9,410 nt of DNA from Candidatus Iainarchaeum sp. Its GTDB lineage: Archaea > Iainarchaeota > Iainarchaeia > JAGGVJ01. The stretch spans positions 1 to 9,410 of the forward strand of contig JAGGVJ010000007.1 of assembly GCA_021158055.1 (NCBI GenBank), read 5' to 3'. Of this stretch, positions 2,809-9,410 are shown in pieces (the stretch's first letter is position 1; every line of letters starts with the position of its first letter). The translations under genes and the position numbers were made by a program. The notes beneath the pieces were generated by a model that was not told the DNA's origin, searched no databases, and saw nothing but the letters and a program-made list of their open reading frames with translations.

Positions 2809-3051
2809 ATGAATATTCTTTTGAGGGGAAAAAGCAAGCAGATCATAGACAGCATGGTTGAAGAAGGTTATGCGAATACTAAATCAGAAGCAATAAGAAT
2901 GACCATTATAAATTTTGGTGAAGATTATTTAAATGAAATAAAATCAGTTAACAAAAAGCTTGACAAGTTAGACAAAGACATAGATTCAGGAAAAAGAAAA
3001 TTGCTTGATGTTAATCAGGCACTCGGCAGTTATTCCAGGCACGTGGAGTAA
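2809..3051 (+). CDS. Ribbon-helix-helix antitoxin of a type II toxin-antitoxin module
   Basis: This is a small 80-residue protein. The N-terminus, MNILLRGKSKQIIDSMVEEG, reads as a beta strand then a helix. It is followed by YANTKSEAIRMTIINFGEDY (21-40), the typical second helix of a ribbon-helix-helix DNA-binding domain (compare the GxxxSxSEAIRxA pattern of CopG/ParD-like antitoxins). The C-terminal half (about 41-70) is a charged helix rich in lysine and aspartate, the usual toxin-binding tail. It starts at ATG 2809 with a clear GGTGG ribosome site and ends five bases before the toxin gene, so the two are co-transcribed. It is expected to neutralise the toxin and repress the operon by binding DNA. 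The exact antitoxin family is not determined. Confidence 0.85.
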   Translation: MNILLRGKSKQIIDSMVEEGYANTKSEAIRMTIINFGEDYLNEIKSVNKKLDKLDKDIDSGKRKLLDVNQALGSYSRHVE

Positions 3052-3056
3052 TTGAA

Positions 3057-3320
3057 ATGTATCAGGCAAGTTTTGATGAGGACTGGCCTAAATATTTTAA
3101 TAAATTAGAACATGCCATTAAAGAACACGCGGCTAAAAAAATAAAAAAAATACTTGTGTCCCCGCAAAAACGTCACCTCAAAAAAGGAGCTCGGTTTTTT
3201 GTTGATGAAATCGGGCAATATAGATTAATTTATCGAATTTTTGAAGAGAATAACGAAGTTCGGTTTTATTTTATAGGCAACCACAAAGAATATGAAAAAT
3301 GGTATAAACACTACTTTTGA
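3057..3320 (+). CDS. RelE/ParE-superfamily toxin
   Basis: This 87-residue basic protein lies directly behind the ribbon-helix-helix antitoxin. A GGAG motif within the end of the antitoxin gene stands about eight bases before ATG 3057, so the two are probably translationally coupled. The N-terminal half is helical (FNKLEHAIKEHAAKKIKKIL). The C-terminal part, GQYRLIYRIFEENNEVRFYF followed by IGNHKEYEKWY, is the beta-sheet and terminal helix typical of archaeal RelE-like toxins. RelE members cut mRNA on the ribosome, whereas ParE members poison gyrase; the short length and the IGNHKEYEKWY ending favour a RelE-like nuclease, but the sequence alone does not settle this. The gene seems intact. Confidence 0.85.
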   Translation: MYQASFDEDWPKYFNKLEHAIKEHAAKKIKKILVSPQKRHLKKGARFFVDEIGQYRLIYRIFEENNEVRFYFIGNHKEYEKWYKHYF

Positions 3321-3324
3321 TCAC

Positions 3325-3450
3325 ATTAGGGAAGTATTTTAAATGCGGTCAATACATTAGCCAAAAACACTGATTTTCAGCTATTGTATTAGCCAAAAAT
3401 GCGCGTTTTTGGCGATTATGTTAGCCGATATTGCTAAAAAATAGCCAAAA
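3325..3450. repeat. Degenerate repeat of about 32 bases in the toxin/aglB intergenic region
   Basis: The word ATTAG recurs at 3325, 3356 and 3388, with GTTAG at 3420, so the spacing is 31, 32 and 32 bases. The two middle units share the 12-base start ATTAGCCAAAAA and are about 70 percent identical overall. The second and third units can each fold into a hairpin (TTAGC 3421-3425 pairs with GCTAA 3433-3437). Conservation is too poor and the unit too contiguous for a CRISPR array. It could be a decayed hairpin element or a binding-site array. The 188-base gap holds no gene. Confidence 0.45.
3392..3413. terminator. Hairpin between convergent toxin and aglB genes
   Basis: GCCAAAAA (3392-3399) pairs perfectly with TTTTTGGC (3406-3413) around a six-base loop. 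It stands between the ends of two convergent genes, a normal place for a bidirectional terminator. On the minus strand a T6 run (3436-3441) lies downstream of the aglB stop and before the hairpin, and archaeal termination often needs only such T-runs. Confidence 0.4.
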
Positions 3451-3508: not shown

Positions 3509-5695
3509 TCAGACCTTGTAGATCTTCACGCTGGGCGAGTCAAACACAAGCTCGAACGGGACATCGTCGGCCTTGAAGAAAAGCTTTGCAAGCAGTGTCT
3601 CGTTCAGGTAAGAATTTATTGCGTAAAGCGCGTCGCTATCGTCTGCGCGATACACAAAAAACGGAACCCCACGCTCTATCCCCGCGGGCCTGTTTGTCCA
3701 TTTGCTCGGGTAAACACTAAGGTCTTCACTGCTGTAGGCCTTTCCCCCGCATACAAACAGGTTGTCTTCGGCAGTGCAGTCAGAATACCTTCCCGCGTAT
3801 CTGGTTACCTGCCTGTCGCTTTGGGGCGCGTTGAACCCGATTGACGCAAACGCGCGGTAAGTGCCGAACATGCGCTTGTTTAACACGATGTAGTCAACCT
3901 TGTTTTTTTCAAGAAAAGCTTTCGTGGAATTCAGGTCGGGTTCAAGCAAAAACCTTGCAACCTGCGCGACAGTTCCGCCGTGCGCGTTTGTGTTGTCAAT
4001 CAATGCTTTTCTTTGCCCCACGAAAGTTATCCAGTGCCCGTAGTCCCACCAGCTCACCGTGGTCGAGCCCTCTGGAGTTGATTCGCGCAAAAAGTCAAGG
4101 GCGCCAACCCAGTCCTTGTCGTTGTCAAGGTCTGTGTTTTTGGTGGAGACAAAGTAAACCCCGGAAGAAACACCCATCAAAAGCATGAAACCCACAAACA
4201 AGACCCCGGCATATTTTGTGATGTTTTTTTTCTTTGACACTTCAAGCACTTCGTTAAGCGCAATCCCGCCGATTACTGCAAGCGCGGGTCCGAACAGGTA
4301 AGTGAATTTGAGTTTCATGAAAGCAAGGTACACTGTTGAAATCGCGATTACGAGCGCAAACGCATACAAACTTTTTTTGTCTTTGATCATCTTAAGGGGA
4401 AGAAGGACAAGCCCCAGCACAAACAACGCAAAAATGCCGTTGTATTTCAGGGGAAAAGACGATATTCCCATGTTTTCCTCGCCGATTGTCTGGCCTAAAA
4501 TCGAGGTGTTGTAAGAGATGCTCACAAAGTCAATGACTTTGTCAACAATCACCCCGCCTGAAACAACCAGGCCAACAACCACCAAGACAAGCAATGCAAG
4601 ATGAAGCGTCTCAAGGGATTTCACGCCGCCGGATGCGGCTGCAAGACCGACTGATTTTTTTTCAGGTTCTCTGATGTCTTTTCCTTTGGTTTGCCCGGTT
4701 TCTTTTGTTTCCCCGGCTTCTTCGGATTCTTCGGTTCCTTTAGTTTTTTCCTTGTCTTCATTGCTTTCATTGCCTTTTCCTGCCTTGCCTTTTCCTGCCT
4801 TGCCCCGCCTGGCGCTTCCCAAAAGGCCCTGCATAGTGATGCCTCTTGAGGTCAGGCACTGGAAAAACGCTGCGAAAAGGTACCCGATCAAGGCAAATCC
4901 TGTTGCTCCGAGGAAAAACATATTGCTTGAGAAAAGAAAAGAAAACACTGCAAACGAAAGCACAATCACAAGCGACGGTGTTGCAAGGTCTCGCTTTTGC
5001 CCGCGTGCAAAGTCGATTGCGGACTGGACTGCCACAAAGCCCCCGAAAATCCCTGCGCCGTAAATGAAGTTTTTCCAGGTAAGGACGGTGAGCAATACAA
5101 ACAAGCCGGCGAGCCCGGCGTTTTTGACCTGCGACGAGGTCTCTGTTTTTTTCATGGCCCGCACTGCAAACGCAAAGAAAATAATCATGAAAAGCATCCC
5201 GAGCGCGTCTTCTTCAAAGAACCCGGCCATGCTCCTGTAAACGTGGGAAGGGATTACTGCAATCAAAAACGCGCAGAACAGCCCTGCACGGTTTCCCGCC
5301 AGCTCGCGCCCGAGGAAAAACATTGCAATGGCTGAAAGCGCCCCCATAAATGCAGGAAAAAATTTCACGATCGCGATCAAGTCAAGCGGGTTGTCGACAG
5401 TGCTTTTTCCCGTGAACAGGTTGTAAAGAAATGCGTTTATGTAGTACATGAGCGCGGGGTCGTTTATTGCCCTGTTCAGCGTGTAGTACCCGAGCGTGTC
5501 TGTTGCCGGCAGCGACCCTGTCTCTATCACGCTTTGGGTGAGGCGCGCGTGGTAATACGAGTCAAACCCGTACAGGTACTCGTTTGGCGCAAGGTACGCC
5601 CTTACTGAAAAGGCAACAAGGAAAATCAATGCAATGGAAAAAATGATTTTTTTGTCTGTCAAAAAGTCAAGGGTTTTTTCAAGGGTTTTTTTCAT
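3509..5695 (-). CDS. aglB: Dolichyl-phosphooligosaccharide-protein glycosyltransferase (AglB/STT3)
   Basis: This is the membrane catalytic enzyme of archaeal N-glycosylation; it moves a lipid-linked glycan onto Asn in Asn-X-Ser/Thr sequons on the outer face of the membrane. The 728 residues start with a transmembrane helix (about 17-32). The first loop carries the metal-binding acidic residue in GFDSYYHARL (D45). The second acidic motif is FFEEDALG (159-166), TIGE (403-406) matches the archaeal TIXE loop motif, and WWDYG (549-553) is the sequon-binding hallmark in the soluble C-terminal domain. About ten further membrane segments lie between them. An unusual low-complexity, Lys/Glu/Gly/Thr-rich insert spans about 295-347 in a loop between two membrane segments. 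The start is well supported by GGAAGTGA six bases upstream. The gene is richer in G+C than the accessory genes around it and appears intact. Confidence 0.95.
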   Translation of the reverse strand: MKKTLEKTLDFLTDKKIIFSIALIFLVAFSVRAYLAPNEYLYGFDSYYHARLTQSVIETGSLPATDTLGYYTLNRAINDPALMYYINAFLYNLFTGKSTVDNPLDLIAIVKFFPAFMGALSAIAMFFLGRELAGNRAGLFCAFLIAVIPSHVYRSMAGFFEEDALGMLFMIIFFAFAVRAMKKTETSSQVKNAGLAGLFVLLTVLTWKNFIYGAGIFGGFVAVQSAIDFARGQKRDLATPSLVIVLSFAVFSFLFSSNMFFLGATGFALIGYLFAAFFQCLTSRGITMQGLLGSARRGKAGKGKAGKGNESNEDKEKTKGTEESEEAGETKETGQTKGKDIREPEKKSVGLAAASGGVKSLETLHLALLVLVVVGLVVSGGVIVDKVIDFVSISYNTSILGQTIGEENMGISSFPLKYNGIFALFVLGLVLLPLKMIKDKKSLYAFALVIAISTVYLAFMKLKFTYLFGPALAVIGGIALNEVLEVSKKKNITKYAGVLFVGFMLLMGVSSGVYFVSTKNTDLDNDKDWVGALDFLRESTPEGSTTVSWWDYGHWITFVGQRKALIDNTNAHGGTVAQVARFLLEPDLNSTKAFLEKNKVDYIVLNKRMFGTYRAFASIGFNAPQSDRQVTRYAGRYSDCTAEDNLFVCGGKAYSSEDLSVYPSKWTNRPAGIERGVPFFVYRADDSDALYAINSYLNETLLAKLFFKADDVPFELVFDSPSVKIYKV
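4772..4801. repeat. 15-base perfect tandem repeat inside aglB
   Basis: Two exact copies of a 15-base unit (GCCTTTTCCTGCCTT on the plus strand; 4772-4786 and 4787-4801) encode the repeated KGKAG part of the hydrophilic insert of AglB. The unit is a multiple of three, so copy-number changes keep frame and would vary only the loop length. Confidence 0.75.
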
Positions 5696-5838: not shown

Positions 5839-7130
5839 TCAGCTTTTTGGCTTGCGGTCCCTGAAAACGCAGAACGGCCCACACATGGAACATTGTTTTG
5901 TCCGGGAATCTGTCCCGGCAGAATGATTGGTTTTCAGGCATTCGCCTCCCCTCATCCTGGCAAACTTTTTCCTGTCAATCGCGTGCTTTGACATCTCATC
6001 CCAGTTCACTTCTTCTCTTGCTTCTGCCATCCTGCGGTCTCTCAGGATAGCTTCTTTGTTCCCCCTGGCGATGTCTGCGATGTGGGCGGCTATTCTTGCC
6101 GCCGCGACACCTTCCCATACGTCATTGATGCCGGGCAGGCCTATGTGTTCTTTGGGGTGACATAACAGAGGAAATCCGCCCCCATCCAGCCTGCCAGGGC
6201 TCCGCCGACAGCGCAGGCAATGTGGTCGTATCCCGCGGCGATGTCTGTGGGCAGAGGCCCCAGGACATAAAAAGGGGCGTTGTCGCAGTGCTTTTTTTCC
6301 AGCCTGACGTTTTTTTCAATCTCGTTCAGCGGAATGTGGCCCGGGCCTTCTATCATTACCTGGACTTTTTTCTCCCTTGCCTGCCTTGCAAGGTCTCCCA
6401 AGATTTTAAGCTCCAGGATCTGCGCTTTGTCTGTGGCATCGGCAAGGCACCCGGGTCTTAACCCGTCTCCCAGACTCAGGGTGACATCGTATTCTGCAGC
6501 GATTTCAAGTATTTCATCAAAGCACTCGTGCAAAAAGTTCTCGCTCCCGTGGCACTTCATCCACTCAAGCAGAAAAGAACCCCTGCGACTGACGCATTTC
6601 ATCACCCTTGTCTTTATCGGGGGGAAAGCGTCCCTGGTTATCCCTGCGTGAACAGTGGCAAAATCAACGCCGTCTTTTGCGTGTTTTTCAAAGACCTCGA
6701 GATAAAGGTCTTTGTCCATGTCTGTCACTCCGCCCGCCTCGATTGCGGTCTGGTAGATCGGGACGGTGCCAAGGGGAACAATGCATTTTTTGATTATCTT
6801 TTTCCTGACATTGTCCAAATCATCGCTTGTGCTCAGGTCCATCACTGCGTCTGCACCTGCTTCGATTGCTGTCCTTAACTTCTTGAGTTCTGTCTTTAAA
6901 TCTGATTTTTCCTGGGAGGTGCCGATGTTGGCATTGACTTTCATCCTCAGGCCAAGACCGATGCCTGTTGGATTTAAATTCCTGTGTCTGGTGTTTGCCG
7001 GGATGACAGCCTGACCGCCGGCTATTCTTTCCCTCAGAAGATTAATGTCTGTGTTTTCCTTTTCCGCGACAATCCTCATCTCTTCTGTTGTCCTGTTTTC
7101 CAAAGCTTCCTGAACTTGTGTAATTTTCAA
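5839..7130 (-). CDS. thiC: Phosphomethylpyrimidine synthase ThiC, interrupted by a one-base frameshift
   Basis: ThiC is a radical-SAM enzyme that rearranges aminoimidazole ribotide into the pyrimidine phosphate of thiamine. Frame one runs 7130-6141 (329 codons) and covers most of the barrel: TRHRNLNPTGIG, VNANIGTS, GPGHIPL (262-268, metal-binding His265) and GYDHIACAVGG (His303). It then stops after ADFLCYVTPKNT, where the family reads about TPKEHIGLP. The rest is open in the next frame down to 5839 and includes the C-terminal cluster motif CSMCGPFC (CX2CX4C), which binds the [4Fe-4S] cluster. Joined, the product is about 430 residues, normal for archaeal ThiC. The start is TTG 7130; an in-frame TAA lies three codons upstream, and the nearby ATG at 7137 is out of frame. 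No TPP riboswitch is visible. It may be a fresh pseudogene, a sequence error, or expressed by -1 frameshifting. Confidence 0.9.
6150..6156 (-). other. CCCAAAG heptamer at the thiC frameshift point
   Basis: On the minus strand, frame-zero codons ACC CCA AAG AAC ACA TAG run into the stop at 6141. C CCA AAG fits the X XXY YYZ pattern of -1 slippery sites. Slippage there would give ACC CCA AAG then GAA CAC ATA GGC, that is TPKEHIG, exactly the expected ThiC sequence. A one-base loss from the C-run or from an AAGG would produce the same DNA, so the site alone does not prove programmed frameshifting. Confidence 0.6.
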
Positions 7131-7137
7131 AACCCAT

Positions 7138-7185
7138 TATCCTTTACTTTCAATCATTTAATATCCTTTACTTTCAACCATTTTA
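7138..7185. repeat. 24-base tandem repeat in the thiC leader
   Basis: Two adjacent 24-base units (7138-7161 and 7162-7185) share a 16-base identical core, TATCCTTTACTTTCAA on the plus strand, and differ at only a few later positions. On the minus strand each unit carries an ATG, then a GAAAGTAAAGGAT stretch with a ribosome-site-like AAAGGAT. The thiC translation-start region is thus duplicated. The units encode mini-ORFs MIESKG and MVESKGY that end just before thiC. Confidence 0.75.
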
Positions 7186-7213: not shown

Positions 7214-7367
7214 GTTTATTGCCCTGTCAGTGTGTAGTACCTGGGCGTGTCTGTTGCCGGCAGCGACCCTGTCTCTATCACGCTTTGGGTAAGGCGCGCG
7301 TGGTAATAAGAGTCAAACCCGAACAGGAACTCGTTCGGCGCAATGTACACCCTCACTGAAAAGGCAA
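7214..7367 (-). pseudogene. Fragment of a second aglB (codons about 28-78)
   Basis: About 154 bases align to 5462-5616 of aglB with about 11 mismatches and one clear single-base gap near the end (a further small gap may fall at the extreme edge), roughly 90 percent identity. Read on the minus strand it gives FSVRVYIAPNEFLFGF then DSYYHARLTQSVIETGSLPA, including the catalytic loop Asp. The missing base then turns LNRAIN into TGQ and a stop. There is no start codon, no first membrane helix and nothing of AglB beyond this. Most differences are synonymous or conservative (Tyr to Phe twice, Ala to Val, Leu to Ile), so the source was probably a functional paralogue or a relative's gene and not a random copy of the neighbouring gene. 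It fills the gap between thiC and the rloB remnant. Confidence 0.9.
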
Positions 7368-7773
7368 GAAGAATATGCTTTTATAATGTATTAATTGAAT
7401 TAGTTTTTTCTTAAACAAAAATTTATTGCCCACACGGTTTAGTTGAGTTTATTTTTTTCAATAAGCGCTTGAATAAACTCCACTAATTTAAAAACCTGTG
7501 TTGAAGGGTTGCTTTCTGTGCTGTTTAATGGCGTATTTTCTTTTTTATGCATTTGGTTTAAGAATTTTGCATTTTCTATCGCAGTAGTTTGTTTGTCTTC
7601 TAAGCAATCATTAATGTTTTTGTTTTTTTTATAATCATTTATGAACTTTTTTAGTTTTTGTATTGCTTCTTGTCTGGATATTTTAGATTGAGTTTTATCA
7701 TAATGTAAGATAAACCAAAGTTCAAAACAAGGGTTTGATAGGGCGATTTGAATATGTTTTGATTCTGCATAAT

Positions 7774-7823
7774 CGTGTGCTTGTTTCAAGACTGAATCCG
7801 TGTGCTTGTTTCAAGACTGAATC
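7774..7823. repeat. Perfect 25-base tandem duplication inside rloB
   Basis: Two identical 25-base units abut (7774-7798 and 7799-7823), each beginning CGTGTGCTTG and ending GACTGAATC, followed by a further partial CGTGT. Removal of one unit restores the open frame ENTDSVLKQAHDYAESKH. As 25 is not divisible by three, gain or loss of a unit switches the gene off or on. Confidence 0.95.
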
Positions 7824-8095: not shown

Positions 8096-9331
8096 TTAAA
8101 ATACCTTGTTATTTTTTATAAACGGCAATGCACCATATTTCCCCGCAAGATATCCTTTTTTAATATTTTTGTCTTTTCTCGGGCTATATTCCGCTAAAGA
8201 ATAAAGGTCTGTTGCTCCGGTCTCATAGTTTTTTTCAGTGAACCAGATTTGGTCTCTTCTGAATAAGTTTTGAGTATCAAGCAAATTCGTGTTGTGGGTT
8301 GTGAATATTAATTGGGCGTTGTTTTTGTTTTGTGTTGAATCGTGAAACAACTTAATTAAAAACACATTCAATAAATGGTGAAGTTTTATGTCCAATTCGT
8401 CAACAATCAAAACCCGGCCGTTCTTTAAAGAGTCAATCCAGGGGCCAATTAAAGAAAACATTCTTTGAGTCCCCCCTGATTCTTCGCTAAAGTCAAAACT
8501 GACACCTTTATGGGTCATGTTTATTACTTTTTCTTCAACGGTTTTTGCATTGCGCATTATTAATCTCTTAAATTCAGAAGGCATATTTTTTGGCAGGTCT
8601 TCTTCTTTTTTTCTTTCAACAGTCAATGAAACACCGTCAATTCCAACATCTGCCATGCATAATGCCTTTAAAATTAGTTTTTTTGCAGATTCATCTTTAA
8701 GCAGACCTGCGGTATAGTCAGGTAATGCCGGGTGGTCTGTTGAAGCAATGATCTGTAAACGATTTTTAAACCAGTCAAAAGCGTTTGAAACCGGCAGGTA
8801 ATTTTCTTGTGTTGCTTTTGAAAAATACAGCATATTCGGCAAAGTTCTTTCAAAGATTAATTTTTGTCTCGTTTCATCTTTTGGAAACCGGTATTCGCTT
8901 GTGTTTGTTCTTTCAAAAATAATCTTTTTGTTTGGATATTGATATAGATATTCATCAATTATTTTTTCACTGTTAAAAGAAAATCCGTAAACATATTGGA
9001 TATTTTTTTCAATAAAAGTAATATTGAATTTTGTTGGTTTCAAAAGATTGTTTTTATCCAGCTTAAACGGGGAAAAACTAAGTCTATCGCCTTTTTGGTG
9101 ATTATGGGATAATAAGACAAAACCTTTCAACAAGTTAATTGCTGAAACAATATTGGATTTGCCTGATGCGTTCGCTCCGTAAATTGCTGCACTTTTTAAC
9201 AGTGAGTCGTTTTTTAAAACATTTGTTTTGACTATATTTTCACTTAAGGAATCATCTTTTGCTGACACCATACTAAATGTTGCTTTTTCTTTTATTGAAC
9301 GAAAATTTTCGACATTAAATTCAATTAACAT
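8096..9331 (-). CDS. rloA: RloA-like (AbiLi-like) AAA_15/ABC-type ATPase
   Basis: The protein is 411 residues from ATG 9331 (MLIEFNVENFRSIKEKATFS). The frame is open to 9394, but the extra residues come from promoter-like AT-rich DNA. Motifs are the family opening FNVENFRSIKE, Walker A GANASGKS (52-59), signature-like SEESGGTQR (282-290), Walker B VLIVDELD (307-314), switch His346 in FTTHNTNLLD, and the C-terminal YLAGKYGALPFI (394-405) typical of COG1106 proteins. These ATPases resemble SMC/Rad50 heads and the OLD/PARIS (AriA) sensors. With RloB they form the RloA-RloB pair found beside restriction systems, and the pair matches the AbiL abortive-infection architecture. Here no restriction genes are seen, and the partner rloB is disrupted, so the system is probably inactive or only conditionally active. 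Confidence 0.88.
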   Translation of the reverse strand: MLIEFNVENFRSIKEKATFSMVSAKDDSLSENIVKTNVLKNDSLLKSAAIYGANASGKSNIVSAINLLKGFVLLSHNHQKGDRLSFSPFKLDKNNLLKPTKFNITFIEKNIQYVYGFSFNSEKIIDEYLYQYPNKKIIFERTNTSEYRFPKDETRQKLIFERTLPNMLYFSKATQENYLPVSNAFDWFKNRLQIIASTDHPALPDYTAGLLKDESAKKLILKALCMADVGIDGVSLTVERKKEEDLPKNMPSEFKRLIMRNAKTVEEKVINMTHKGVSFDFSEESGGTQRMFSLIGPWIDSLKNGRVLIVDELDIKLHHLLNVFLIKLFHDSTQNKNNAQLIFTTHNTNLLDTQNLFRRDQIWFTEKNYETGATDLYSLAEYSPRKDKNIKKGYLAGKYGALPFIKNNKVF

Positions 9332-9342
9332 ATAAATAACCC

Positions 9343-9410
9343 TAAATTTATTAAAAAATAATGTTTTTTGTGATTTTTCCACAAATATGAACATATCTAC
9401 ATATATATAC
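9343..9410 (-). promoter_or_regulatory. Upstream region of the rloAB operon
   Basis: The AT-rich region before ATG 9331 carries a TATA-like TTTTTTAATAAATTTA (about 9343-9358, minus strand), which would give a leaderless or nearly leaderless start. A perfect 5+2+5 palindrome, ATATGAACATAT, lies at 9385-9396, with a second ACATAT at 9399-9404. The palindrome is a candidate operator. Which TATA-like stretch is used cannot be decided from sequence. Confidence 0.35.

Follow-up and report, generated by a model that had tools for sequence, protein, structure and literature searches.

The aglB-thiC locus

The window analysed here is the whole stretch of DNA of one contig, 9,410 nucleotides long, from a Candidatus Iainarchaeum genome of 1.15 Mb in 45 contigs that is about 95% complete. 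Read in the direction of transcription, the minus strand carries abiLi (9394-8096), then a disrupted abiLii/RloB-like gene (8033-7439), a relic of aglB (7371-7214), thiC (7130 to about 5839) and aglB itself (5695-3509). The last of these encodes an intact AglB/STT3-family oligosaccharyltransferase of 728 aa; the genome has no other full copy. Of thiC, too, only one copy was found, and its frame is broken near 6160. Between the start of thiC and the relic lie two copies of a 22-bp unit, spaced 24 bp from start to start (7138-7183).

The neighbouring genes show several further features. The thiC frame is lost within 6130-6185 (minus strand), at ACC CCA AAG. This contains C CCA AAG, which has the form of a -1 slippery heptamer, and a -1 slip at this point would yield the conserved TPKEHI; alternatively, the simple loss of one base would, in codons as constrained as these, often leave the letters unchanged. 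At 7774-7823 an exact 25-bp tandem duplication disrupts the abiLii/RloB-like gene, beside an abiLi-like AAA ATPase gene (8096-9394, minus strand) whose frame is open, and this is apparently either a recently inactivated defence system or a switchable repeat. Directly past the aglB stop, at 3346-3427, units of the TTAGCCAAAAA type are repeated in both inverted and direct orientation, in the interval that separates aglB from a ParE/HigB-like toxin gene (3057-3320). The latter is the second gene of a small pair on the plus strand (2809-3320); its product matches ParE/HigB weakly, and the two are likely to be a toxin-antitoxin pair. With both thiC and abiLii broken, the neighbourhood of the relic is a stretch of decay, in which a short pseudogene fragment is not out of place.

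A partial copy of aglB upstream of thiC

An undirected repeat search identified 5476-5620 and 7227-7371 as a two-copy direct repeat of 92% identity. Full alignment extends this to 5462-5620 against 7214-7371, with 91.8% identity over 159 columns (E about 1e-58). The relic is therefore a minus-strand segment of 158 bases, situated 1.75 kb from its parent gene in the same genome, and it corresponds to codons 26-78 of the 728 in aglB, which include the first catalytic loop. An earlier note, made from the sequence alone, had recognised a relic of aglB at 7214-7367. The identification is borne out, and the coordinates were right to within 4 bases. The relic is both truncated and frameshifted, and the match begins at codon 26 and not at codon 28 as then proposed.

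The relic differs from aglB by 12 substitutions and one 1-base deletion. Five substitutions are synonymous (codons 31, 37, 46, 52 and 72) and seven are replacements, which in the direction from intact aglB to relic read V27L, A33V, L35I, Y40F, Y42F, L68P and G69R. The catalytic-loop residues GFDSYYH are retained. To describe the differences as mostly synonymous or conservative is, taken literally, correct (10 of the 12), but this does not hold for the final stretch, where L68P, G69R and the frameshift are all damaging. The missing base is in codon 74 and leads to an early stop; ahead of the frameshift there is no stop, and the relic has no start codon. Both edges are sharp and fall inside aglB, and no significant aglB similarity remains in the 100-base flanks (P 0.09 and 0.83). 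In these 158 frameshifted bases there is no open frame with STT3 and core domains, and no sign of a second functional AglB. Elsewhere in the genome no further aglB was found, leaving one full gene and one 158-base piece.

We also asked how usual such copies are in this genome. Self-comparison, conducted in stretches, covered 1,146,889 of the 1,147,527 bases. Other short dispersed repeats are present, and 20 pairs were classified, including four of tRNA genes, several internal to long repetitive proteins and two that involve a single 415-aa ORF; several of the 20 have no assigned identity. Among them, aglB alone is clearly an ordinary gene of which a piece with a broken frame lies elsewhere, and the idea that this genome copies parts of genes as a rule was rejected.

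The region was further searched for signals. A thiamine riboswitch or other RNA element upstream of thiC was considered and rejected, there being no Rfam match at the gathering score, nor any around the relic up to E 1. The predicted fold is no better than that of shuffled sequences (z 0.07). Patterns of sigma-70-type promoters and of terminators, which are of limited meaning in archaea, were absent. Viral contigs searched with a conserved 41-base pattern for a close relative gave no match.

Comparison with related genomes

The comparison set consisted of 87 genomes of the class (Diapherotrites-like archaea), every other genome compared being outside the genus, family and order of this one. 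The relatives recovered with aglB are Diapherotrites or Ca. Iainarchaeum-like archaea at about 30% identity, and the lineage is therefore remote from every genome compared. An aglB match is present in 78 of the 87 genomes and thiC in 23. In none of the roughly 20 other class genomes with both genes are the two adjacent; the only other pair on the same contig is about 58 kb apart. An intact second aglB beside thiC was found in none of the 87 class genomes.

Over the segment, the relic and the intact aglB are 85% identical in amino acid sequence, while no other aglB in the aligned set exceeds 52%. In a tree of 48 shared residues the two are sisters with support of 100/99, the relic having the longer branch (0.12 against 0.042 for the intact gene).

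Residue states were read from 35 aligned rows from relatives, some of which duplicate one genome from two collections. At codons 33, 40, 68 and 69 it is the intact gene that has a residue found among the relatives, and at codon 35 it has the usual L. Neither P at codon 68 nor R at codon 69 occurs in any of the 35 rows. At codons 27 and 42 it is the relic that carries the usual residue (at codon 27 L, in 21 of the 35 rows; at codon 42 F, in all 35), and these two replacements, both conservative, map to the branch of the intact gene. Codon 42 of the intact aglB (5570-5572, minus strand) specifies Y, beside GFDSYYH, where the relic and all 35 rows have F. Because the relic has the relatives' usual residues at these two positions, it was probably not copied from the aglB allele of today; either the intact aglB has itself changed since the two diverged, or a sister allele was the source of the piece. 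Against a profile of the relatives, the relic scores 63.7 bits and the intact segment 71.9.

Selection on the relic

The earlier note had also proposed that the fragment diverged under selection and was then lost. A neutral expectation was obtained by random mutation of the intact aglB segment with 12 changes. At least five synonymous changes were obtained in 10-18% of the trials, and the observed excess (5 synonymous against 7 non-synonymous) is thus not significant (P 0.10-0.18). A set of replacements as conservative as that observed, measured by the sum of BLOSUM62 scores, has P about 0.024 for the pair, and the synonymous count and conservativeness jointly have P 0.002-0.005 (0.2-0.5% of trials). 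It is therefore probable that the replacements between the two copies are truly conservative. When codons 27 and 42 are given to the intact gene, the replacements on the relic branch alone fit neutrality (P about 0.2, on few changes). As to relaxed constraint after the origin of the relic, this value and the joint value for the pair point in different directions, and both rest on just 12 substitutions. Since divergence between the two copies also counts changes on the living gene's branch, the conservatism can come from the constrained branch of the intact aglB, or from an allele living elsewhere, and there is no need for the relic to have diverged as a working gene.

Origin of the relic

The explanation that we favour, with a probability of about 0.8, is that the relic is a pseudogene made from a piece of a gene: part of the resident aglB, or of a closely similar allele, was duplicated, never encoded a whole enzyme and is now decaying. 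A piece of aglB, from the resident gene or a very close allele, would have been copied to the site upstream of thiC, most likely by a tandem or ectopic duplication with a breakpoint inside aglB near codon 78 and later loss of the 5' part, or else by direct short insertion. The relic would then have gathered substitutions and the frameshift among other broken genes (thiC and abiLii). The homology with its limits, the frameshift and the otherwise single-copy state of aglB are all shown directly, while we infer both the route by duplication and the lack of function from the start; there is no sign that the relic once encoded a whole enzyme, nor of a present function. In support of this reading are the single full aglB, the well-supported sisterhood, the sharp edges, the frameshift and the replacements L68P and G69R, together with the lower profile score, the longer and apparently neutral relic branch, and the lack of an Rfam match or unusual fold. 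The states at codons 27 and 42 argue against a recent copy of today's allele, and the pairwise replacements, being more conservative than neutral, count against the pseudogene reading.

A possible but less probable origin, which overlaps with the one above, is that a sister strain or species with an aglB about 92% identical supplied the piece, through DNA uptake and illegitimate insertion. The conservative differences would then represent ordinary divergence of alleles under selection, followed by a little decay. That the relic has ancestral residues at codons 27 and 42, that the pairwise pattern is conservative and that no stop lies ahead of the frameshift all agree with this. However, the donor allele was not found among genomes that all lie outside the order, and an old duplication of the resident gene accounts for the same pattern.

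The earlier note preferred a past second oligosaccharyltransferase, and this we regard as improbable. A complete and functional second enzyme, decayed to one internal piece, would agree with the conservative pairwise pattern. However, no other remnant of aglB flanks the fragment, the other genomes of the class contain neither a second aglB beside thiC nor any aglB-thiC neighbours, and the relic branch is compatible with neutrality; moreover, a partial copy is a simpler account than the loss of some 2 kb of gene with 158 bases left at 92%. That note had itself named, as evidence against its proposal, a fragment nearest to this very aglB, no functional paralogue in relatives and no excess of synonymous change. 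The tree, the search for two aglB genes flanking thiC and the substitution counts together gave essentially this outcome, with two caveats, namely that the pair is conservative and that every relative compared lies outside the order.

An assembly chimera of strain variants is more doubtful again. The genome, in its 45 contigs, resembles a metagenome bin, and some contigs (C26 and C41) resemble near-identical variants. However, several contig ends, including one of the present contig, overlap by exactly 127 bases, pointing to short-read assembly with k=127. The longest identical run common to the relic and aglB is 46 bases, and the repeat is therefore unlikely to have made a false join; the junctions also share no sequence. 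On these sequence grounds an artefact is unlikely. Many contig ends of the assembly, where it broke, are tandem arrays of 17-24-bp units.

Least credible is the suggestion that the relic is maintained as a gene-conversion donor for the first catalytic loop of aglB, the sole hint being the identical middle 46 bases, as a run of at least this length occurs in 13.5% of random placements (P 0.135), the stretch (about codons 53-67) comes after the catalytic motif, and conversion would risk importing the nearby L68P, G69R and frameshift. Even taken together, it is very improbable that the relic is either what survives of a second aglB that formerly worked or a kept donor recoding the first catalytic loop by gene conversion.

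Comparison with known systems

The relevance of the relic beyond annotation is small. It shows that, in a small archaeal genome, part of a key glycosylation gene can be duplicated and then left decaying. A mildly interesting detail is that codons 27 and 42 of the relic retain a state that is either older or that of a sister, while the aglB of today differs there from most or all of the relatives examined. A literature search found no paper evidently concerned with aglB fragments of this kind.

In comparison with AglB/STT3 oligosaccharyltransferases (PF02516, TIGR04154), the relic keeps the first-loop GFDSYYH and 92% DNA identity to the intact gene, but it consists of codons 26-78 only, has no start and no core domain and is frameshifted, and is thus not a functional member of the family. 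The STT3 isoforms of plants and animals, as outlined in PMC7050244, have in common with it the duplication of an STT3-type gene; however, they are two full working genes, whereas here there is one piece without a reading frame. Pseudogene fragments in prokaryotes are well documented, in a survey of 64 genomes (PMC522871) and with Pseudofinder (PMC9336565). In what these accounts set out, they are short, disabled intergenic copies with frameshift and truncation, as here, and nothing essential differs. The relic is an ordinary gene-fragment pseudogene, with the particular circumstance that its parent is a single-copy gene, 1.75 kb away in the same small archaeal genome.
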